Origin: Gemmatimonadota bacterium
GTDB lineage: Bacteria > JBHIER01 > G020348925
NCBI GenBank assembly: GCA_020348925.1
Contig: CP070758.1
Coordinates: 3,106,026-3,170,025, forward strand
Direction of reading: 5' to 3'
DNA: 64,000 nucleotides
Below are positions 15,883 to 64,000 of this stretch, one piece after another. Each line of letters opens with the position of its first letter. The first letter of the stretch is position 1. A program made the position numbers and the translations under genes. The notes beneath the pieces were generated by a model. The model was given only the letters and a program-made list of their open reading frames with translations. It searched no databases and was not told the origin of the DNA.

Positions 15883-18105
15883 CTACTTGAGCAGCAGCAT
15901 CGATTTCGTATCGAAAAACTCTCCCGCCTGCAGCCTGTAAAAGTAAACGCCGCTGGCCACAGACAAGCCATCCTTGTCCAAGCCGTCCCACGTGACTGTG
16001 TACGTACCTGCTTCCTGTTTCACATTGACCAGGGTCCGGATGTGCTGTCCTAAAACATTGAACACCTCAAGACTGACCTCATGCACCTGGGGTAAACGGT
16101 ATTCAATCGTCGTTTCCGGATTAAAGGGATTCGGGTAGTTCTGAACGAGAACGTACTCCTCGGGCATGGGAAGCTCCGGATGCGGCTCAACGGCTACCCA
16201 GACAGTATACGTAATTGTCAGCGTATCGTCGGCCTCAAATTGAGCACAGGTGACATCCCGCATGTTGATTTCATCGTTGAGGACGAATTGGCCGTTGGGA
16301 AAATCATTCGGATTCCAGCAGATCTCACCCTCGGTACCCTCGGTCACAAGAGTCCACACCACCATGCTGTCCAGGGAACTCCGAATATCCGTACAGAGCT
16401 GCTTGAAAACAGGGTGATCCAGGGGAAAGTACGCGAATAAATCAGGCGGTAAAGGAGGATGCGGGGGACACGGAGAATCCAAACCGACGTCGAGCCCCTC
16501 AGTGCCACTCGGATCGGCGCCGAAAAAGGCCCTGACCGTGTCATCATGTGCGCTGCTTCCCAGGGTAAGCAGAATCGCATACGACCCGGCGTTCGGTTCC
16601 ACATCAACGGACACGCCCCCACTCTCGTTGCCGACTTCATCGTAGGCCGTTACCGTCAGAGTATAGATGCAAAGATTGGCCAACCCTATGACCTCATAAT
16701 AGGAAACATCTCCCACATCAAACTCATCCACTGGGACCCCTGCACTGTCGACGTACACTTTGTAGCCCCGCACATCTTCGGAGGTACTGGCTGTCCACAT
16801 CAACGTCACTTTACCATCACCAGCCAGTCCCTGCAAACCGGTCACGTCGGCCGGTGGCGTTTGATCCTCGTAGGAATAAGTGATCGTGTAGCTCTGCCCT
16901 GCTTCAAACTCCATGGAATTGCTCTCTCCCATGTCGACTCCGTCGAACATGATGTCGGCATCGGGGGGCAGCGCTGCCGTATCCCACGTGAATGTTCCGG
17001 CGACACCCTTTGTTTCCAAAGTCCAGATCACCGTCAGGACGGTCGAACTCCGAACATCTTTTGTGAGTCGGTTTAATACCGCATCAATCGAGAAGTAGGC
17101 CTCAAAATCAACTCCAGGCGGTGTGGGTGCTTTTGGCTCATCAAGATCTGGATCAAAATCATCCGTTCCATCCGGATCGACCCCAAAAATAAGATCGACG
17201 GTAGGTTCCTCAACATCATTGGGTGTGGCCGTCACTGTAACCGACCACGCATCACCAGACGGCCCGGTCACCACAAACATGCCGTCGACAACATCGGTGG
17301 GAATCTCTTGTCCTTCGAAATTGGCCAGGACGACATCTGTCAAAGTGAGGGCATACTCACCTAAAAGGGCTTCCGATGACACATCAATGTAAAAAATGGC
17401 CACAGGACCCGATCCGGGCGCTATCGTATCTCCCTCACGATCAGCAATGACGAGAATAACCTGACCGGTTCCGTACTCCAGGTTCGCCTCGAAAATACTC
17501 ATGTCGGCCGCTCTGATCCCGGGCACCACCTCCGTCGGGTCCAGTATATCCGCATCAAAATTGAGAACGAAGTTCATCCCCGCCAATCCAACTGAGTTAT
17601 TCATCGTAATCACGACTTTGTTATGCGTCGTTCCCGGATCACCATAACCGTTCTCAACAGACACAGTGGCCTCCATATCTATACCACCGGCACCGCTCCC
17701 GTTGAGAGGAACTTCCACCGTCGGCTGAACAGGATCGTTGCTGGTGACGGTCAGTGTTCCTGTGATCACTCCCTCACTTCCAGGCGTAAAGGAAACCGTA
17801 ACGTTGGAGGAAGAACCACCTGAAACCGTCACGGTTGTTGGTTCTACGGCGAACGCCCGGTTATCCAAGGCCATTTCAGATACGATGAGATCTTCAGTCC
17901 CTTCATTCGAGATCGTCAGAGTCCTCTGGGCCGTTTCGCCCACGGTGACCTCACCAAAGTCGATGGAGGTCGGATCGAGGAGGATCTCCTGAGCCGGAAC
18001 AGAACCGGACATGACGACCAATAATACAAAGAGGACCATGAGACAAGCGACGGGCCGTATCTCTCCCGTGAATCTCCTGTGCTGTTCCTTCATAAATGTG
18101 CCCAT
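15883..18105 (-). CDS. Exported multidomain protein with cohesin-like, Fn3 and C-terminal sorting domains
   Basis: Secreted or surface protein of 740 residues. ATG at 18105 has AAGGAAGGGG upstream, and a signal sequence ends near residue 39 (SGSVPAQ). In order: an ASH-like beta domain (DFGEVTVGETAQRTLTISNEG, about 40-135), a cohesin-like domain (about 140-280), copy 1 of an unnamed module (about 290-410), a fibronectin III-like domain (about 412-500), copy 2 of the module (about 505-635), and the sorting domain ([17 protein letters not shown] ... GVYFYRLQAGEF). The unnamed module recurs in the next two exported proteins. The role is unknown; adhesion or surface assembly is possible. It ends at a strong terminator. 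Confidence 0.82.
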   Translation of the reverse strand: MGTFMKEQHRRFTGEIRPVACLMVLFVLLVVMSGSVPAQEILLDPTSIDFGEVTVGETAQRTLTISNEGTEDLIVSEMALDNRAFAVEPTTVTVSGGSSSNVTVSFTPGSEGVITGTLTVTSNDPVQPTVEVPLNGSGAGGIDMEATVSVENGYGDPGTTHNKVVITMNNSVGLAGMNFVLNFDADILDPTEVVPGIRAADMSIFEANLEYGTGQVILVIADREGDTIAPGSGPVAIFYIDVSSEALLGEYALTLTDVVLANFEGQEIPTDVVDGMFVVTGPSGDAWSVTVTATPNDVEEPTVDLIFGVDPDGTDDFDPDLDEPKAPTPPGVDFEAYFSIDAVLNRLTKDVRSSTVLTVIWTLETKGVAGTFTWDTAALPPDADIMFDGVDMGESNSMEFEAGQSYTITYSYEDQTPPADVTGLQGLAGDGKVTLMWTASTSEDVRGYKVYVDSAGVPVDEFDVGDVSYYEVIGLANLCIYTLTVTAYDEVGNESGGVSVDVEPNAGSYAILLTLGSSAHDDTVRAFFGADPSGTEGLDVGLDSPCPPHPPLPPDLFAYFPLDHPVFKQLCTDIRSSLDSMVVWTLVTEGTEGEICWNPNDFPNGQFVLNDEINMRDVTCAQFEADDTLTITYTVWVAVEPHPELPMPEEYVLVQNYPNPFNPETTIEYRLPQVHEVSLEVFNVLGQHIRTLVNVKQEAGTYTVTWDGLDKDGLSVASGVYFYRLQAGEFFDTKSMLLLK

Positions 18106-55669: not shown

Positions 55670-55882
55670 TGAGAAAATTGAATTTTTGGTTCCATAGAAA
55701 AATTAAAGAACCCTCATTCGATGAATTCATAAACAACTATGGTGCACTACTTACAGAAATGGCTATGTTGAGCTTTCGTCTTTGAGCTGACCTGAGGAAT
55801 TTGTCGGGTTTGGAATACATATCATAGCGAATTGCAATCGTCTCTCTGTCTCAGTGTCTCTGGGGCGAAGCATCCGGGCGAA

Positions 55883-55918
55883 ACAAAAGAGGTAGAGCGG
55901 GTGCTCTACCTCTTTTGT
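55883..55918 (-). terminator. Strong terminator closing the cohesin/dockerin unit
   Basis: Perfect inverted repeat with 16-base arms (55883-55898 and 55903-55918) and a four-base loop. It lies 25 bases after the 55943 stop. On the minus strand the second arm ends CTCTTTTGT and is followed by TTC, a short interrupted T run. Confidence 0.88.
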
Positions 55919-55942
55919 CAGAAGATGTGGTTTCCCTTGATT

Positions 55943-58900
55943 CTATTTTATCAGCACCATCCTTCGGGTTTCGAGAAAATCACCGGCTTCGAACTCGTAA
56001 AAGTACACACCGCTCGGGAGATCGGCCCCGGCATCATCCCTTCCGTCCCAGCGCACGCTGTACCGTCCGGCAGCCCTCACTCCATCAACAAGAATCCGCA
56101 CAGACTGACCGAGAAGGTTATAGATCTGGAGCCGGACATGACCGGTCTCGGGAAATCCGAACTGAATCTCGGTCTCGGGATTGAAGGGATTGGGATAATT
56201 CTGCGAAAGGTGATACGTTGACGGAATGGCATCGGTTCCGATGGTCAGATGAACATTCCGGTTCATCAGGGGAATGGTGCGGTTCATGATATCCCTCAAT
56301 CCTGAGGTCTCAATACGGATGTCGGTGGTGCCTTCTCGTTTCGGCGTGAACCTCAGGACGGCCACCGTACCGGATCCGTCGACGCCAAGCGGTTGTCCAC
56401 CCAAAGCAACGACGCTTATTTCGATCGATCCGTGATGGGCGTCCACGCCTTTCACCATCGAAATGAGCGCGCCGTTGTTGCCCAGAAACGGGCCCTGCTC
56501 AACGTCAGCGACCTCCAAGATGTCGGGATCGAACCGAACCTGCGCCATCGCTCCCAAAAGACGGTTGACCTGTTCAACCTCAAGACGGAGCGCAAACACC
56601 TCCCCTACCGGGACAGACGCCTCAGCCTTGAGCATGACCAGGGCTTGACCCGCCATCTCCGGATCGGAGACATATTTCGCCCCACCGCCTCTGACCGCCT
56701 CCTTGTACCAGTTGTACATCAGGGCGAACACCACGTGATCCTCAAAATCGATGACACCTTCTCCGGGAAACGGATAGTTCGTCTTGGACCAGGGCGGGCT
56801 TCCGGCACCGCCGGGACCGGGATATCTGGCCACATCCCCGGTCAGATCGTCCGGATCGGCGTTCCAGTATTGGAGAAACAGGGCGTAGTCGGCGAAATCG
56901 ACATCGTCATCGTTATCGAAATCACACAGCAGATCTCCATCCCCTATGCCCTCAAACCGCCCGTCATCGTGGGTCACGTCAATGGTCGCATTGAGCGTGT
57001 CGCGCAGGGTGTAGTTTCCAAAAGGAAGATCACTGGACGGATCCGCCACTTTGGCCTTAAAGGTCAGTTTGGCAATGGTCCCGCCTCCGGATATCCCCTT
57101 CGGAATCCCCCCCAAAAGAGAAAACTCAACGGAACCGGTCCCGTTCGTGTTATCAAAATCAGACATGAACCCCGTATTGTCCGGGTTGTTCTGGTACAGA
57201 AAACTCCCTTCGGATATACTCAACAGCTCCACCTTGTTCGTCACGAAGAAGAAGGTGATGCTGGCTCCCAACAGGTTTTTTACATCCCTGATTTTCAGAT
57301 GGACAACTGAGGAGACCGATCCGAAGAGATAGCATGGATCCGGTTCGAAATAGAGTTGCGCCGTTGCAGAAGAGCCTATTGTTTTAAAAACTTCATTGTT
57401 CCCCTCGTTCCACTCCTCGACGGCTCCATCAGGATCGATACGGACATAGATATCGTGGGCATCAAGGTCCGGCATGGTCCATGAAATCTGAACGGTTCTG
57501 CTGTCACCGTCGGTGAGATTGAACACCTCCTGGTCGCTGCCGATGGGATTGACAACGACGTCCGGATCACCGTCGTAGAATCGAATCGTGACTGCAGCCA
57601 CTGTGGCGCCTTGATCGGTGTGACAATGGATCGTTGCCGAAATGGTGACACTCTCCCCCATATTTGGAAACATGTTGGAAATGGTGAGGTCGTCCGTCGC
57701 GATGCTGAGATCTCTCAGTGACGTCCAAACCGAGGTGGTTTGCGATTCTCCTATGGCTCCGTTCGAATCGGTCACTCTGAGGCGCACAAAGCCCGAGTAT
57801 TCCACATTCCAGGTCATGGTGGTGGTCACACCTGTGGCATCGTCGTATGCATCATCCCCATCCAGATCCCACTCGTACAACACAATGTTGTCTCCCTGAT
57901 CAGGATCGTATGAGCCGCTCCCATCAAAGGTGATCTGTTGGCCGACGTGGGCCGCGTAGGGGCCTCCGGCATCGGCCACGGGGGGATGGTTGCCTCGGTT
58001 CACAATGATCGCATGTTCGTCGGTGTCGGTCATCGTGGGACTGCTATCGTCCGTCACCTGAAGGGTCACATAGACCGTATCCCGATCGACCCCGAGGGGC
58101 AATGAGTAGCCAGACCCGTTTGTCACCGCTTTGCCCTCGGCATCCGGATTGTTCCAATTGACCCCGTCGGATTTATCGAAATCCCACTTCCAGGAGAGGA
58201 TATGTTTGTCCGGATCCTGATGCCACGACTGGGAGCCATCGAGGTCCACCGGGCTGTTCGGGGGCACAGAATCGGCGGCCACGACGACGGCAACCGGGGG
58301 CAGCTCGAACACCCCGGGACTGAGAATGAGGACGCCAAAAGCCGTCGACAACTCCTCAATCGATCCCCCCCAACCACTCCACTGACCCACAGGCCAACTC
58401 CCATTCATATCATGACCATAGCTGGCATCGTAGATCAGATAATCGACGTATTCGTCATACCAGTTGTGGGCTCCAATGGTGACAATATTGGAGCCATCGG
58501 GGTATCGAATGGTCCGACAGCCTTTGGCCACGGCGTACATGCCGTAATAATTACCGTTCATATGCTCCCGCCAGCCGTATTCATCGGACGTATCATTCCA
58601 GTGGTTGACCATAAACTGGATCGCATTTTCGATGGCCGTGTCACTGGCGGATGTCTTCAGATAGGAATGGGAGCAGATCGCAGCACCCGTCTTTGTGATA
58701 TTATCGATCTCCTCATCATAGGTGTAACCAAAGCCTCCAAAATCATCGCTTCTCGGATTCTTCACCTGGCTGTTGTACAACCATTTTGCCAGCTCCGTCT
58801 TGACAAAACCCGAGGCCACTATGCCCCACGAGTTTTCCGCCGCTTCGAGAGCCAGGGCCGGCCACTGCACGGCGGAATTATCGCTGCTGCCGTAATCAGC

Positions 58901-59896
58901 CGTGCTGGAAGAATACCGCCACCCGCCCCGACCGGCGCGGGTCGTATCCGTCTGGCTCCAGACCAGACAGTCCGCAGCGTTGATCATGAACTGGCGATAC
59001 GTGACGCCGTTGACATAGGTCTGCGGCCCGGACGTGATGACGGCATCCGGGGTGTTGCTGGCTACGATGGCCAACAGCGCAATCCCGTTGGCGTAGTTGT
59101 TGCTCGTCACATACGTCCCTTTTCCATCCCCATTCGCGTCCGGATCTCCGGCAAGCTGCATCCCGATATCCACCACCCCGACATGAGAAGAGGCAAAAAG
59201 CCAGTCCAGACCCAACTTGACATACTCAGCATAAATGTCCGTATCGATATCATTGGCCGGGAGATGCCCCTGGTTCTCAAAAGCCAAAATACACAGACCG
59301 GTGGTGCCCACCCCGTACTCGTAGGACGTTGTATACCAGTAGCCCTGCGAATACTGTTGCGTATAGAGGTAGCGAAGACCGTCTTCGATGGCGGCCAGTC
59401 GCCTGGTTTCGGTCACATCGGCCAGAACATTGATCCGAACCTCATCGGAGTCCGAGGCCCCGTCACCGTCGGTAACCGTCAGCCTGGCCGTCTTCACTCC
59501 GAAGGTCGTAAACGTGTGGTTCACGGCGATGTAATGATCATCTGTCACCGTTCCGGTATAGACACTGTCTCCGACAACCCATTCGTACGTTCCTGTCCCC
59601 GAATCGCCCCAGTGGACATTGCCCCAGACGACGATTTCACGATTGGGCCACGTGTAGTACGTCGGCATCACGTTGACCCGCGGATCCGAATTTGCGTTCT
59701 TCATCGCCCCTCTCCAAGTGCTGGCCGGATCGATCTGTGTCTCCTCACGCACCTGCGGAACCGAGGGTCGATATGTCTTCAATAAGTCCTTCGCTCTCTT
59801 CAGCACGGCGTCCTCTTGGCCGATTCCCAACGAACAAAAAGACATCAGGACGATGAGACTTAAGGCACTCACGGCAAAACGATTTGATCGAAACAT
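55943..59896 (-). CDS. Exported protein with alpha/alpha toroid, PKD, cohesin, dockerin and sorting domains
   Basis: Secreted protein of 1317 residues with a signal sequence ending LGIGQ. Approximate order: a PKD-like domain (60-160); an alpha/alpha toroid with prenyltransferase/squalene-oxidase-like repeats (165-530; QYSQGYWYTTSYEYGVGTTG); two PKD domains (535-735); a CARDB-like domain (740-835); cohesin 1 (840-985; LTFKAKVADPSSDLPFGNYT); a dockerin (990-1075); cohesin 2 (1080-1215); and the sorting domain ([17 protein letters not shown]). The first dockerin loop (DFDNDDDVDFAD) fits every calcium position; the second (GEGVIDFED) keeps only its later positions. Having both partners in one protein could allow chain assembly. 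No glycosidase domain is seen, so a classical cellulosome role is unlikely. Confidence 0.85.
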   Translation of the reverse strand: MFRSNRFAVSALSLIVLMSFCSLGIGQEDAVLKRAKDLLKTYRPSVPQVREETQIDPASTWRGAMKNANSDPRVNVMPTYYTWPNREIVVWGNVHWGDSGTGTYEWVVGDSVYTGTVTDDHYIAVNHTFTTFGVKTARLTVTDGDGASDSDEVRINVLADVTETRRLAAIEDGLRYLYTQQYSQGYWYTTSYEYGVGTTGLCILAFENQGHLPANDIDTDIYAEYVKLGLDWLFASSHVGVVDIGMQLAGDPDANGDGKGTYVTSNNYANGIALLAIVASNTPDAVITSGPQTYVNGVTYRQFMINAADCLVWSQTDTTRAGRGGWRYSSSTADYGSSDNSAVQWPALALEAAENSWGIVASGFVKTELAKWLYNSQVKNPRSDDFGGFGYTYDEEIDNITKTGAAICSHSYLKTSASDTAIENAIQFMVNHWNDTSDEYGWREHMNGNYYGMYAVAKGCRTIRYPDGSNIVTIGAHNWYDEYVDYLIYDASYGHDMNGSWPVGQWSGWGGSIEELSTAFGVLILSPGVFELPPVAVVVAADSVPPNSPVDLDGSQSWHQDPDKHILSWKWDFDKSDGVNWNNPDAEGKAVTNGSGYSLPLGVDRDTVYVTLQVTDDSSPTMTDTDEHAIIVNRGNHPPVADAGGPYAAHVGQQITFDGSGSYDPDQGDNIVLYEWDLDGDDAYDDATGVTTTMTWNVEYSGFVRLRVTDSNGAIGESQTTSVWTSLRDLSIATDDLTISNMFPNMGESVTISATIHCHTDQGATVAAVTIRFYDGDPDVVVNPIGSDQEVFNLTDGDSRTVQISWTMPDLDAHDIYVRIDPDGAVEEWNEGNNEVFKTIGSSATAQLYFEPDPCYLFGSVSSVVHLKIRDVKNLLGASITFFFVTNKVELLSISEGSFLYQNNPDNTGFMSDFDNTNGTGSVEFSLLGGIPKGISGGGTIAKLTFKAKVADPSSDLPFGNYTLRDTLNATIDVTHDDGRFEGIGDGDLLCDFDNDDDVDFADYALFLQYWNADPDDLTGDVARYPGPGGAGSPPWSKTNYPFPGEGVIDFEDHVVFALMYNWYKEAVRGGGAKYVSDPEMAGQALVMLKAEASVPVGEVFALRLEVEQVNRLLGAMAQVRFDPDILEVADVEQGPFLGNNGALISMVKGVDAHHGSIEISVVALGGQPLGVDGSGTVAVLRFTPKREGTTDIRIETSGLRDIMNRTIPLMNRNVHLTIGTDAIPSTYHLSQNYPNPFNPETEIQFGFPETGHVRLQIYNLLGQSVRILVDGVRAAGRYSVRWDGRDDAGADLPSGVYFYEFEAGDFLETRRMVLIK

Positions 59897-59959
59897 GATT
59901 CACAATCCTCCTTTTGAGCAGGCCATTCTGAAAGAATTCGATTATGAGACCGCGGTCCG

Positions 59960-60529
59960 TTACTGCGGTGGAAGAATTTCCCCGTGGTTGAAGCAGACAT
60001 CCGCAACCGGTACCGGTGGATTCGCCACAGGATAGTCGTACAATTCGACGGTCTCAAACGTGAGATCCGTTGTAGGATCGGCCACCTTGGCCCGAAACGT
60101 AATATCAGCAATCGGCCCGTCCCCGGAAACGCCCTGAAATCCCTCTTTTCTCCCAAGAAGCCCGAAAATGACCGTGCCGGGTGTAGAGTAGTCCATTTCC
60201 GAGACGACAATACTCGCCCCGGTGCTGGTAAAGAGGTTGTCGGCCAATCCGGTGATATCGATGCCGGTCACCTCCACTTTGTCGGCATCATACGTGATGA
60301 CGACCCTGGCCGCGGTAAGATTCTCCGGATTGAGGATCTTCACTTCCAGGGTGACACTGTTGCCTGCGGACACGTAGGCTGGACTCGGACTGAAGGACAG
60401 TTGTAAGCGCCCGGCAGCACAGCCATCCGAGGGCCCCGTTCCACCATCACCGTCCTCACCGCAACTCACGACCAAAAAAGCAACCGCAACAAGTACCGTC
60501 ACCATCCCCAATTTTCGGAAATACCGCAT
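59960..60529 (-). CDS. Cohesin-domain lipoprotein
   Basis: Small lipoprotein of 189 residues. ATG at 60529 follows GGAGGG, and the signal peptide ends at a lipobox (AFLVVSC) with an acidic-Gly linker (GEDGDGGTGPSDG). The rest is one cohesin-like beta domain (LQLSFSPSPAYVSAGNSVTL; ITFRAKVADPTTDLTFETVE). It resembles cohesin 1 of the next gene. A membrane-anchored cohesin next to a dockerin protein suggests it is the anchor for that dockerin, which is an inference. Codons upstream to 60646 are not signal-like. Confidence 0.8.
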   Translation of the reverse strand: MRYFRKLGMVTVLVAVAFLVVSCGEDGDGGTGPSDGCAAGRLQLSFSPSPAYVSAGNSVTLEVKILNPENLTAARVVITYDADKVEVTGIDITGLADNLFTSTGASIVVSEMDYSTPGTVIFGLLGRKEGFQGVSGDGPIADITFRAKVADPTTDLTFETVELYDYPVANPPVPVADVCFNHGEILPPQ

Positions 60530-60616
60530 AGTAACCCTCCTTCTTTTAGAGTGAACGACCGATAGAGAAATCTGGAGATCCTCAACACCTCCCCCCCACC
60601 CATGATCTGACAAGTA

Positions 60617-60646
60617 TAAATATGGTAATTCCAACAGAATTGTCAA
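60617..60646 (-). promoter_or_regulatory. Promoter for the cohesin lipoprotein
   Basis: TTGACA at 60641-60646 and ATATTT at 60618-60623 (spacer 17), or TATTTA at spacer 18, on the minus strand. The context AAAGCTTGACAAT repeats the context of the -35 box at 31465. A start site near 60610 gives a leader of about 80 bases. Confidence 0.5.
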
Positions 60647-60700
60647 GCTTTAATTGCGTCAGGCTGCGGGAGCAGGGATCGCAAGCGCTCTCTGAGATCT

Positions 60701-61894
60701 TTACTCCTCCAGCTCTTTCAGCGAAAGGGCTTGCTCAAGGGCCAAGATCGCGTAGGCCGTCACGAGATCCTTATTATTCTCCCACCATCGTCCCACCTGG
60801 TTCACCCAATACCCGTCGCCGTGCTGAAGGCTTATGACCTTTTTCAGAAACTCCTCTCGCCAGTTATGTTCGACGTTGTTCTTATCGGTGACGATCTCCT
60901 CCCCGTAGACGTCCAAGGCTTTGGCCATGGTGTGATAGTAATAGTACAGGCCCTGGTCACCCATCTCGGGATTTTTATCCAAAGTGAAATGATCTCGAAT
61001 CCAATCATACGCCGCTTGAACCCGCGGATCGTGACGGTCCACTTGGGCGTAGATAAAGCTCCTCATGCCCGCATACGTCATCGTCCCGTATGACGTCGTG
61101 CCACCGGCCTGACTGAATCCGGGGTAGTATACAAATCCGCCGTCATCGGAGGCCCATTCCTGATCGTTCGACTCCCTCAGATTTTGACAGCGTTGAAGGA
61201 ACAGAATCGCTTTTTCCCAGAAGAGCTCTTTGGAGCCGGCGGCGGTGCCGGTCACGGTCTGAGAATAGACCAGCGTCTCTCCCGTCCCTTCGCTCGTCGG
61301 TCGATAATTTTCCGACTCCTTGAGAGCCTCCAGGGCAAACTGCATATTGGACATATCCGGCCGTTCGTCACCACCGTACCCGATGCCGCCGTAGAAAACG
61401 TTGCTGGCATCATATCCTTCCTCCTCGTCCGCCTGGAGGTCGATCAGAAAATCCCTGGCTCGCCGGATCGTCTCCGTATAGTCGGGATTGTCCGCAGCCA
61501 CCAGAGCGACCAGAGCGACGGACGTATTGTACCCCGGCATATCGTGTAAGTAAATCCCACCATCCGGCTGAACACAGCGCAACAAAAATTGAATGCCGTT
61601 GTACACCGCGGCATTATTCTCCTCAGTATACCCTCTGGGGCTTCTCAGGAAGGCCGTAATAACCAAAGAGGTGATACCAGGGTATGAGCTCCAGGAACCG
61701 TCATCCAGCTGGTTTTGCTCAAGCCAGTTGAGCCCCACCTCGATAGCATGCTCGACCTCCTTTTGGAGGGAGATCTCGATAACAGGTTCCGATCTCACCG
61801 AATCGCTTTTTTGAGCCAAGGCCAGGCTCGAGGGCAGGAAAACAATGAACCAGGCTGTCAAACCTTTTCGAAGAAGCTTCTTCTTGAATTTCAT
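60701..61894 (-). CDS. Secreted alpha/alpha-toroid protein (prenyltransferase/squalene-oxidase repeat type)
   Basis: Exported helical toroid protein of 397 residues with a signal sequence (GLTAWFIVFLPSSLALAQ). Successive helical pairs carry the repeat signature (GLNWLEQNQLDDGSWSSYPG, GIQFLLRCVQPDGGIYLHDM, RDFLIDLQADEEEGYD). The catalytic DxDD or DCTAE motifs of terpene cyclases are absent, so it is more likely a binding or scaffold protein than a cyclase. It is homologous in type to the toroid domain of the 55943-59896 protein. ATG at 61894 has AAGGA upstream; TTG at 61912 is less likely. It starts 14 bases after the YdjY gene. Confidence 0.82.
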   Translation of the reverse strand: MKFKKKLLRKGLTAWFIVFLPSSLALAQKSDSVRSEPVIEISLQKEVEHAIEVGLNWLEQNQLDDGSWSSYPGITSLVITAFLRSPRGYTEENNAAVYNGIQFLLRCVQPDGGIYLHDMPGYNTSVALVALVAADNPDYTETIRRARDFLIDLQADEEEGYDASNVFYGGIGYGGDERPDMSNMQFALEALKESENYRPTSEGTGETLVYSQTVTGTAAGSKELFWEKAILFLQRCQNLRESNDQEWASDDGGFVYYPGFSQAGGTTSYGTMTYAGMRSFIYAQVDRHDPRVQAAYDWIRDHFTLDKNPEMGDQGLYYYYHTMAKALDVYGEEIVTDKNNVEHNWREEFLKKVISLQHGDGYWVNQVGRWWENNKDLVTAYAILALEQALSLKELEE

Positions 61895-61908
61895 AGCAGA
61901 TATCCTTG

Positions 61909-62613
61909 TCAATCTTCAGTCCGCACATTCACGGCCTTTAGAATAAGGTTCACCGGCGTCCCTTTCTCAGGCACAAGGCTCTCGTTGACCCGATAGAGCG
62001 TGTCGTCTGCCCCGCTCGGCAGCGGATTGTTCAAGATCGCAAAGGGATCATGGAAGGTTGCAATGAGGCATCCCTCGAAATCAGCCATGAACGTTCCGTT
62101 TACGATTTTCGAACCTGTGAAGATCCACGGGGTCTGCTCCATCGTCCTCTTCTCAGCGATATTGTACACCAGATCCTCAGCCCGATGCCTCTCAGGCTTC
62201 CCGTTCTCCTGCCATTCCACCCAGACTTCCAACGAATCACCCTGGGGGGTGTTGGCATCCCCCTGGTACTCGATATTTCCGCCCGGTTCCAACCCCATGA
62301 GGAGCAGAGCCACTTGCAATTGATACGGCTCCACGTCCAGCACCAACGTACTTTCATGCAATTTCCCAAATCGCGTGCAGGCAAAATACTCAATCAAGCC
62401 TCGCTGCATGTTTATCTCGCCTTTCATGGAAAGCTCGTTGGTGTTCTGATCAAGGACGACAGCGCCGATTTGATAAACACCCTCAGCTATTTTTTCAACA
62501 GAGGGCTCATCCTTCTTCTGCGGTGTTTCCGATTCTTGACCGGACGTGGTGCCCAAAACGATGACGGTGGCCAAGAATCCGACCGCCATCGCCACTCTTC
62601 TGGATCGCGACAT
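61909..62613 (-). CDS. YdjY-domain exported protein
   Basis: Exported protein of 234 residues. ATG at 62613 follows GAGGA and begins a signal sequence (AMAVGFLATVIVLGTTSGQ). The mature part shows the YdjY pattern: conversion of a reactive N-terminal region with LSMKGEINMQRGLIEYFACT, KLHESTLVLDVEPYQLQVAL and LLLMGLEPGGNIEYQG. The family has no established activity that I know of; it often lies beside toroid-repeat proteins in environmental genomes. Codons upstream to 62742 lack signal character. It is coupled to the toroid gene. Confidence 0.75.
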   Translation of the reverse strand: MSRSRRVAMAVGFLATVIVLGTTSGQESETPQKKDEPSVEKIAEGVYQIGAVVLDQNTNELSMKGEINMQRGLIEYFACTRFGKLHESTLVLDVEPYQLQVALLLMGLEPGGNIEYQGDANTPQGDSLEVWVEWQENGKPERHRAEDLVYNIAEKRTMEQTPWIFTGSKIVNGTFMADFEGCLIATFHDPFAILNNPLPSGADDTLYRVNESLVPEKGTPVNLILKAVNVRTED

Positions 62614-62776
62614 GATGGTCCTCAACTTCCAAAAGTAAAAAAAAGAGTGCACGAAAGTCCTTTCCTGCGTCCTGTCGGTCTTCGTGCCTCGAGAATTCGG
62701 ACTGTTCATCCTCAATATAGTCTCAAAAATCACTCCGTGCAACGTTTAGGCTTCACAGCGCCTCTGGGCGGGCACG

Positions 62777-64000
62777 TCATATGGAGATCTCGGAAGATAC
62801 GATGAAGCACCTTCCTGGCCCGTCAATCCCCGACCCGTGCTCCCTGTAAGCCTTGTCCAGGATGTTCTCCAAACCAACGCTCGCTCGTACAACATCTGTC
62901 ACATGAAAACCGGCTCTGATATTGTGCGTGATCCATCCCGGGGTCCCCCCTATCGGGATTCGCACATCGGCCTCATCATCTGCGGACAGCTTATCCTGCC
63001 TGGTCGCAAATCGACTGAAACACTCGACCCACAGCCTCCGCTGAAGAGGACTCCATTGGACTCCGAGAAATCCGAAAGCCGGCGGAATCCGCCGCAGGGG
63101 CTCGTCCCTGCTGAGATCCCTTCCGGACGTCCAGGTGAAATGACCGAAGAGAGACCAACTCGGGACGACGAACCATTCCCCATGTGCCTCAAAACCCTTG
63201 ATGCGGGCTTCGTTGATATTGACTTTCCTCCAGACCTGCTCGCCATCGAGAGTTGGCGAACCATGGTATGTGCTCGGTTCGCGGTCAATAAGGTCATCCA
63301 ATTCAGTTACGTATGCGGCGACAGCGCCGCTCAGAGACCGAGATCTGACTTTCAGGCCAATTTCGTAAGTGATGCTCTTCTCCGGGTTCAAACCCGGACT
63401 GGGTACCTCGATGCCGGCGTGGAAATCGCCGAAGGTCGTTTCGTCATCGACATTGGGAGTCCGAAAGGCCTGGGCAATACTGAGAGTGACATTCACATGA
63501 TGTGTTAATCCGTACACCGCGCCGAAACTGCCGGTCACTGCGTCGGTCGCAGCGTCAATGGCCCCAAAGGTGGAATCTTGAAGATCGGCCTTCAATCCGA
63601 AACAACTGTATCTCCCCCCGACTGACACCGAAACGTTCGGAAGAATTGAGACTTCGTCCTGGACGTATACGGCATAACTCTGAAAAGATGATCCATCAGG
63701 ATACCTGGATCTCTTCGATTCGCTGAGCCCAGTCTCGACCTCGGTATCCCTCCTCTCGCTGCCGATGTCATCCCTGTAAGCCTCGACGCCGTATGTCAGG
63801 CGATGTCTCCGCCCGAGACTGGAATTCAGCTGGATACCGATACCCAGGGTTCTCGTGTTATCCTCCTCGACCGTCAACAGCGTCTCCCCTTCCTTCCGCT
63901 TCTTCCGCCCCTCATTCTGTCTGTGGTACGAAATCGTCGCTCTCAGCACTTCAATGTAGGGCGCCACGTGGCTCACACGGTAATCCACAAACAAGAGATC
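62777..64000 (-). CDS. TonB-dependent outer-membrane receptor, C-terminal part
   Basis: The last 407 residues of a TonB-dependent transporter barrel, cut by the window edge; the frame is open through base 64000. Visible are alternating amphipathic strands (RLTYGVEAYRDDIGSERR, YAVYVQDEVSILPNVSVSVG), the plug-to-barrel type loop NPEKSITYEIGLKV, AFRTPNVDDET, and the C-terminal signature ASVGLENILDKAYREHGSG with an aromatic-rich last strand. The substrate is unknown. It sits 163 bases upstream of the YdjY gene in the same direction, so it may bring in a ligand captured by the following exported proteins. Confidence 0.88.
   Translation of the reverse strand, partial: DLLFVDYRVSHVAPYIEVLRATISYHRQNEGRKKRKEGETLLTVEEDNTRTLGIGIQLNSSLGRRHRLTYGVEAYRDDIGSERRDTEVETGLSESKRSRYPDGSSFQSYAVYVQDEVSILPNVSVSVGGRYSCFGLKADLQDSTFGAIDAATDAVTGSFGAVYGLTHHVNVTLSIAQAFRTPNVDDETTFGDFHAGIEVPSPGLNPEKSITYEIGLKVRSRSLSGAVAAYVTELDDLIDREPSTYHGSPTLDGEQVWRKVNINEARIKGFEAHGEWFVVPSWSLFGHFTWTSGRDLSRDEPLRRIPPAFGFLGVQWSPLQRRLWVECFSRFATRQDKLSADDEADVRIPIGGTPGWITHNIRAGFHVTDVVRASVGLENILDKAYREHGSGIDGPGRCFIVSSEISI

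Follow-up and report, generated by a model that had tools for sequence, protein, structure and literature searches.

Three known systems come closest to the locus described below. A non-cellulosomal cohesin-dockerin pair of Archaeoglobus fulgidus was reportedly described by Voronov-Goldman in 2011 (cited in PMC9705933), and PDB 2xdh is the cohesin of this pair. In A. fulgidus, the genes are adjacent, one encoding a lone cohesin and the other a cohesin plus a dockerin. The pair is non-cellulosomal and is used as an orthogonal one in PMC9705933. In the Cloacimonadota, a Gram-negative candidate phylum, 'Ca. Stygibacter' has a cellulosome-like system of cohesins and dockerins with a large scaffoldin that is attached to the cell by a conserved C-terminal domain (PMC8542988), and the ANME archaea have large, S-layer-based, non-cellulosomal cohesin and dockerin repertoires that include substrate-binding proteins with dockerins (PMC9012536). 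Many genomes are known to encode cohesins and dockerins of the non-cellulosomal kind, mostly without an assigned partner; a conserved two-gene cassette predicts the partner directly.

The locus considered here lies at one end of the window, i.e. the whole stretch of 64,000 nucleotides of Gemmatimonadota DNA that was analysed, and its genes and flanking signals are as follows.

62777-64000, minus strand: TonB-dependent receptor, the C-terminal 407 codons of which are inside the window (TonB_dep_Rec 5e-47, Plug 1.5e-21)
61909-62742, minus strand: exported protein with a YdjY domain, probable start codon ATG at 62613 (NF040466 E 8.2e-46, 156 bits, cut-off 50)
60701-61912, minus strand: secreted alpha/alpha-toroid protein, the YdjY partner, likely ATG at 61894 (SQHop_cyclase_C 1.6e-6)
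60619-60646, minus strand: promoter-like site TTGACA-16-CATATT (consensus scan, 10/12 matches, weak)
59960-60529, minus strand: cohesin lipoprotein of 189 aa with a single cohesin, ATG at 60529, stop at 59960 (Pfam Cohesin E 2e-8)
55943-59896, minus strand: T9SS-exported surface protein of 1317 aa, with PKD, toroid, PKD, CARDB, cohesin, dockerin-like module, cohesin and T9SS tail
55882-55919, minus strand: intrinsic terminator with a 17-bp perfect stem; the stretch folds at -33.1 kcal/mol, z -6.4

The five co-directional genes and the strong terminator that had been described in the sequence-only reading are all present where that reading placed them. Its expectation that the five would be conserved as one unit was overturned, as synteny splits the locus into two separately conserved cassettes and rules out a single conserved operon; the stretch is a composite of the two. 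Between the cassettes, i.e. between the toroid gene and the cohesin lipoprotein gene, there is a gap of 171 bp with the promoter-like site inside it, and the five genes are therefore not taken as a single operon. Across the region, the consensus scan found 10 promoter-like sites against 5.3 expected, and no hairpin above those of shuffled sequences was found between the cassettes.

The cassette nearest the terminator consists of the lipoprotein gene and the gene for the large protein, regions of which are listed below.

58262-59404, minus strand: second alpha/alpha-toroid region, residues 165-545 (toroid homologues 23-25% identical over ~390 aa, E 1e-6 to 1e-9)
56996-57331, minus strand: cohesin 1, residues 856-967 (own-genome cohesin HMM 5e-11)
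56693-56932, minus strand: dockerin-like module, residues 989-1068 (family HMM 1e-34; profile matches PDB dockerin 2y3n_B at 1.5e-6)
56288-56626, minus strand: cohesin 2, residues 1091-1203 (own-genome cohesin HMM 8e-18; Pfam Cohesin)
55946-56230, minus strand: T9SS type A sorting tail, residues 1223-1317 (TIGR04183 31.9 bits, cut-off 23)

As had been proposed, cohesins occur in two genes, one in the lipoprotein and two in the large protein, and the scores against PF00963 (36.3 and 48.9 bits, respectively) exceed the cut-off of 24.1. Cohesin 1 is 38% identical to the lipoprotein cohesin (E 6e-17), and the three are mutually closest among 40 cohesins sampled in the home genome, i.e. the genome that contains the window. 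When searched against the PDB with phmmer, the single lipoprotein sequence gave no match and a profile was needed; the profile of the lone-cohesin family matches both a solved cellulosomal cohesin (3l8q, E 7e-12) and 2xdh (E 0.0056). The lipoprotein has a bacterial lipobox, VVS-C (MRYFRKLGMVTVLVAVAFLVVS-C, identified by eye in the sequence), followed by an acidic stretch, and is predicted to be displayed on the outer surface. For the large protein, export as T9SS type A cargo is indicated by the tail, which scores over the cut-off, and by the full-length PorU of the home genome (one copy, 738 bits, cut-off 420), where at least 150 type A tails are found. The second toroid region has no Pfam match. 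The protein most closely related to the large protein, encoded in L019, shares 40% identity with it across residues 17-840 but has neither cohesins nor the dockerin-like module; in place of the cohesin, module and cohesin of the window protein, there is a carboxypeptidase-regulatory domain. Thus, the C-terminus has been swapped.

The dockerin-like module is, on the evidence of its sequence, a divergent dockerin that is recognised solely through its family profile. Earlier, it had been called a dockerin with an intact first calcium loop, and that loop (DFDNDDDVDFAD) is indeed intact; the call needs amending in that the second loop (PFPGEGVIDFED) is modified, without ligands at positions 1 and 3, and the single-sequence Dockerin_1 (PF00404) score is 14.1 bits, below the cut-off of 22.9. 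The Ser/Thr positions by which canonical dockerins are recognised cannot be made out, the own-genome dockerin HMM gives the module 0.2 bits, and phmmer found no match in the PDB for the single sequence. The family profile, in comparison, reaches 2y3n_B as well as 2ccl_B (4.7e-5), and it aligns with the canonical dockerins of the home genome at 82% and E 1e-5 in hhalign. Members of the family are W-rich modules of 70-80 aa, with a first loop DFDxDGDID, a W-ending helix, and the motifs GDIGP, PDGxVxxEDLxVF and MWNWY, in which two F-hand-like repeats can be discerned, the second modified. Eight of 14 members match Dockerin_1 at E up to 1, one of them strongly, and the G324 homologue passes Dockerin_1 at 31.5 bits. 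The module is unique within the home genome. Two other identities were rejected, namely, an ordinary dockerin of the home genome (given the 0.2 bits, and the dissimilarity to at least 148 canonical dockerins there) and a chance resemblance (given that the same module occurs in homologues of other genomes).

Cohesin 1 plus the module served as the query for a homologue search in 386 genomes, and the upstream lone cohesin was not part of that query. In G318, G003, G045, G437, G322, G245, G324 and G402, the last having two pairs, the module gene is nevertheless directly preceded by a lone-cohesin gene; the pair is thus kept, clearly matched, in eight further lineages, and a more divergent case occurs in a ninth (G311). 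Among T9SS-tailed genes with upstream DNA visible, and with the window and G322 included, the lone-cohesin gene is immediately upstream of all ten module-bearing genes and of only two of 46 others (Fisher p 1.9e-9), a count in which G322, which spans two loci, was entered by hand, and in which G324, having been found through its own lone cohesin, is not independent, its omission leaving the picture unchanged. G080, with a weak module match under the counting threshold (E 5e-3), has no lone-cohesin gene directly upstream, and in G006 the contig ends before the C-terminus of the partner gene. The paired genes are on the same strand with gaps of -39 to 166 bp. Since most lone cohesins are lipoproteins and those of G402 carry T9SS tails, the constant feature is an anchored cohesin. 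The cargo of the module genes varies by lineage, including the toroid of the window, VWA, FG-GAP, NHL/BNR propellers and a beta-helix, as is expected for a display module. That a non-cellulosomal cohesin and dockerin unit exists here, as the sequence-only reading held, is therefore upheld by a pair that is kept across lineages and by two profiles that both match solved structures.

We predict, with a probability of roughly 0.55 and from sequence comparisons, that the cohesin lipoprotein and the dockerin-like module form a dedicated latch for the display of T9SS cargo. According to this model, the first gene would give rise to an outer-membrane lipoprotein with one cohesin, and the second to a T9SS-exported protein, in which variable N-terminal cargo (in the window, the PKD/alpha-alpha-toroid/CARDB body) would be followed by a C-terminus of cohesin, dockerin-like Ca2+ module, sometimes another cohesin, and sorting tail. 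The lipoprotein cohesin would most likely dock the module of its neighbour, non-covalently and separately from the other cohesins and dockerins of the genome, and docking would hold or arrange the cargo on the outer surface. A private, orthogonal pair fits with the grouping together of the locus cohesins and with the absence of any other copy of the module from the genome. Slightly short of an even bet is the wider proposition that this is a general, previously undescribed latch of T9SS-bearing lineages, consisting of an anchored lone cohesin and a T9SS partner with the divergent module, with cargo that is interchangeable across many lineages, and orthogonal to the other cohesins and dockerins of the host.

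Several observations count against a latch. The second Ca2+ loop and the recognition positions depart from the canonical pattern, as noted above; the homologue search included cohesin 1, G324 was reached via its lone cohesin, and the weak match in G080 is without a lone cohesin upstream. The cohesins could be acting as plain Ig-like domains. Also, the T9SS tail is itself the anchor of the cargo in known systems, and a second one beside it is not obviously needed. Docking in cis could occur as well, the large protein having its own cohesins beside the module. In the main rival, cohesin 1, the module and cohesin 2 of the large protein would pack against one another to form a stiff stem, stabilised by Ca2+, by the sorting tail, and the lipoprotein cohesin would be a structural or assembly helper that does not bind the module. 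Such a stem would suit the arrangement in most homologues, where a cohesin immediately precedes the module and often another follows it, and the occurrence of the cohesin-module order in two G487 lipoproteins that have no upstream lone-cohesin gene; it is nonetheless considered unlikely, as it leaves unexplained the lone anchored cohesin that precedes every counted module-T9SS gene and is rare elsewhere.

The home genome is itself an outlier: it has 81 matches to cohesins and at least 148 to dockerins, the latter being a lower bound from 150 of 525 candidates scored, as compared to 2-11 and 1-49, respectively, in six genomes that have related loci. It also has, at 4334158-4340957 (L080), a scaffoldin-like cluster of two proteins with three cohesins and a dockerin each and one with six cohesins and a T9SS anchor. 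With such a repertoire at hand, the locus cohesins might dock some of the canonical dockerin proteins, leaving the local module as a relic. We regard this as improbable, because the cohesins of the locus group by themselves, a distance of 20.7 kb separates the locus from the nearest canonical dockerin, and the module is conserved across lineages and hence not a relic. Physical clustering was rejected as partner evidence, the proximity of cohesin and dockerin loci in the home genome showing no excess over random shifts. With no more co-location of these loci than chance would give, little can be concluded here from neighbourhood by itself.

The other cassette pairs YdjY with the secreted toroid. 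The YdjY gene occurs once, beside a toroid gene, in each of five genomes: the home genome, G045, G104, G224 (L019) and G225 (L020). In another phylum, that of G039, where the toroid family is present in 84 of 85 genomes, YdjY is part of a toroid fusion protein of ~800 aa (CARDB-toroid-YdjY in the G039 copy), and similarly long open frames contain YdjY in G141, G142, G143, G163 and G168. This pairing and fusion indicate that YdjY and the secreted alpha/alpha toroid work together. In L019 and L020, the pair is followed by genes for large toroid proteins with T9SS tails, the L020 copy being fused to an astacin protease, and G059 encodes a subtilase-toroid protein. The AF2 model of YdjY is confident (pLDDT 88.8, pTM 0.85), despite which its fold has no match in the PDB (best E 0.47). 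The toroid fold of the partner is secure at the level of its AF2 model (pLDDT 80.8, pTM 0.81), for which Foldseek returned squalene-hopene cyclases, AprG and GH76 at TM 0.5-0.6. Relative to those toroids, the fold is alike and the protein here is exported, lacks DxDD and is 12-15% identical; function is not transferable from them. Class II terpene cyclase chemistry was discarded (DxDD absent in all five aligned toroids), as was complement-like thioester chemistry (no CGEQ motif). In the home genome, the proposed latch cassette has been joined to this independently conserved pair, and the displayed toroid therefore presumably shares the pair's target.

The full TonB receptor gene encodes 794 aa (L009:8803-11187; genome 3168802-3171186) and is cut by the window end. 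It had been suggested that the surface assembly collects a ligand and passes it to this adjacent receptor, and adjacency in the window, together with a related receptor in L020 (32% identical, two genes upstream of YdjY, with another receptor between), speaks for such a relay. The receptor adjoins YdjY-toroid in just two of five genomes, i.e. the window and, less directly, L020, and a TonB gene is missing beside the pair in L019, G045 and G104; none was recognised beside the cohesin pairs of other lineages. The best family of the receptor is TonB-hemin-like rather than glycan-related (TIGR01785 274 bits, under the cut-off of 316.85), and a SusCD-type uptake system is not indicated, with TIGR04056 at 84.8 bits against a cut-off of 368 and a lipoprotein that is a cohesin rather than SusD-like. 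Delivery to the receptor is thus very improbable, and that part of the sequence-only reading did not hold up.

The same gene pair with different cargo in several unrelated lineages suggests a widespread, unstudied latch, and the cassette reduces the question of the partner to an experiment on two small proteins. Confirmed binding would add non-covalent display of T9SS cargo in phyla whose anchoring route is unknown, and surface-display work would gain a further orthogonal pair of proteins. The literature covered, mostly open-access, yielded no description of a cohesin-lipoprotein/T9SS gene pair, and an earlier description is possible.

Profile comparisons show the two module families to be homologues of those in the clostridial cellulosome (type I/II); the five genes include no CAZymes, CBM or multi-cohesin scaffoldin, such that the locus is not a cellulosome, and anchoring here is by outer-membrane lipid and T9SS. 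The earlier statement that carbohydrate-active enzymes are absent is true for the five genes; a gene resembling a GH (MGH1-like, E 1.5e-42) lies four genes upstream, beyond the window. The Stygibacter system, with its multi-cohesin scaffoldin and dockerin-bearing enzymes, is closer to the scaffoldin cluster of the home genome than to the locus, which has one cohesin lipoprotein and one adjacent, non-enzymatic surface protein. The substrate-binding dockerin proteins of ANME can be compared with G487 here, and no lipoprotein-T9SS gene pair is described for ANME in the part of PMC9012536 considered. Unlike the locus, with its divergent module, the A. fulgidus pair is archaeal, has a canonical dockerin and is without a T9SS tail or bacterial lipobox; both are non-cellulosomal, and the gene layout is the same.

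Across its 5.04 Mb, the home genome of the window (G000) encodes 81 cohesins, together with a minimum of 148 canonical dockerins, and esterase, LamG and FG-GAP domains are present on the two dockerin proteins that were examined. Its cohesins include those of the following loci:

G000:C1:4334158-4340957 (L080:7159-13958), scaffoldin-like cluster
Window 15883-18105, T9SS-tailed protein of 740 aa with ASH and cohesin domains

The cluster comprises two proteins with three cohesins and a canonical dockerin, as well as one with six cohesins and a T9SS tail. The set has the look of a Gram-negative system akin to a cellulosome, with scaffoldins of the adaptor and the anchoring type. The protein at 15883-18105, a further cohesin-bearing T9SS-tailed protein, has no relation to the 55883-64000 locus.

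Within that locus, the YdjY domain (window 61909-62742) probably adopts a fold without a solved example, because its AF2 model is confident (pLDDT 88.8, pTM 0.85) and yet matched no solved structure in Foldseek (best E 0.47). In the phylum of the compared genome G039, some proteins join YdjY to a toroid, the secreted toroid family occurs in 84 of 85 genomes, and MacB-like ABC transporter genes adjoin the toroid gene in several examined loci.

C-terminal cohesin domains also occur on proteins of L127, L138, L139, L143 and L148, loci from several genomes, where most of the cohesin-protein genes adjoin genes of the prepilin-like kind, in loci for a pilus or for type II secretion. Two other loci combine cohesins with a dockerin-like module:

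L145:1-12176, lone-cohesin/T9SS genes alternating with large cohesin-module-cohesin-T9SS genes (two such pairs and the beginning of a third)
L126:2958-15105, two lipoproteins, each with an N-terminal cohesin and a dockerin-like module

The C-terminal part of the shorter L126 lipoprotein resembles a peptide-binding (OppA-like) protein, and the pair may be likened, by analogy, to the dockerin-bearing substrate-binding proteins of ANME.
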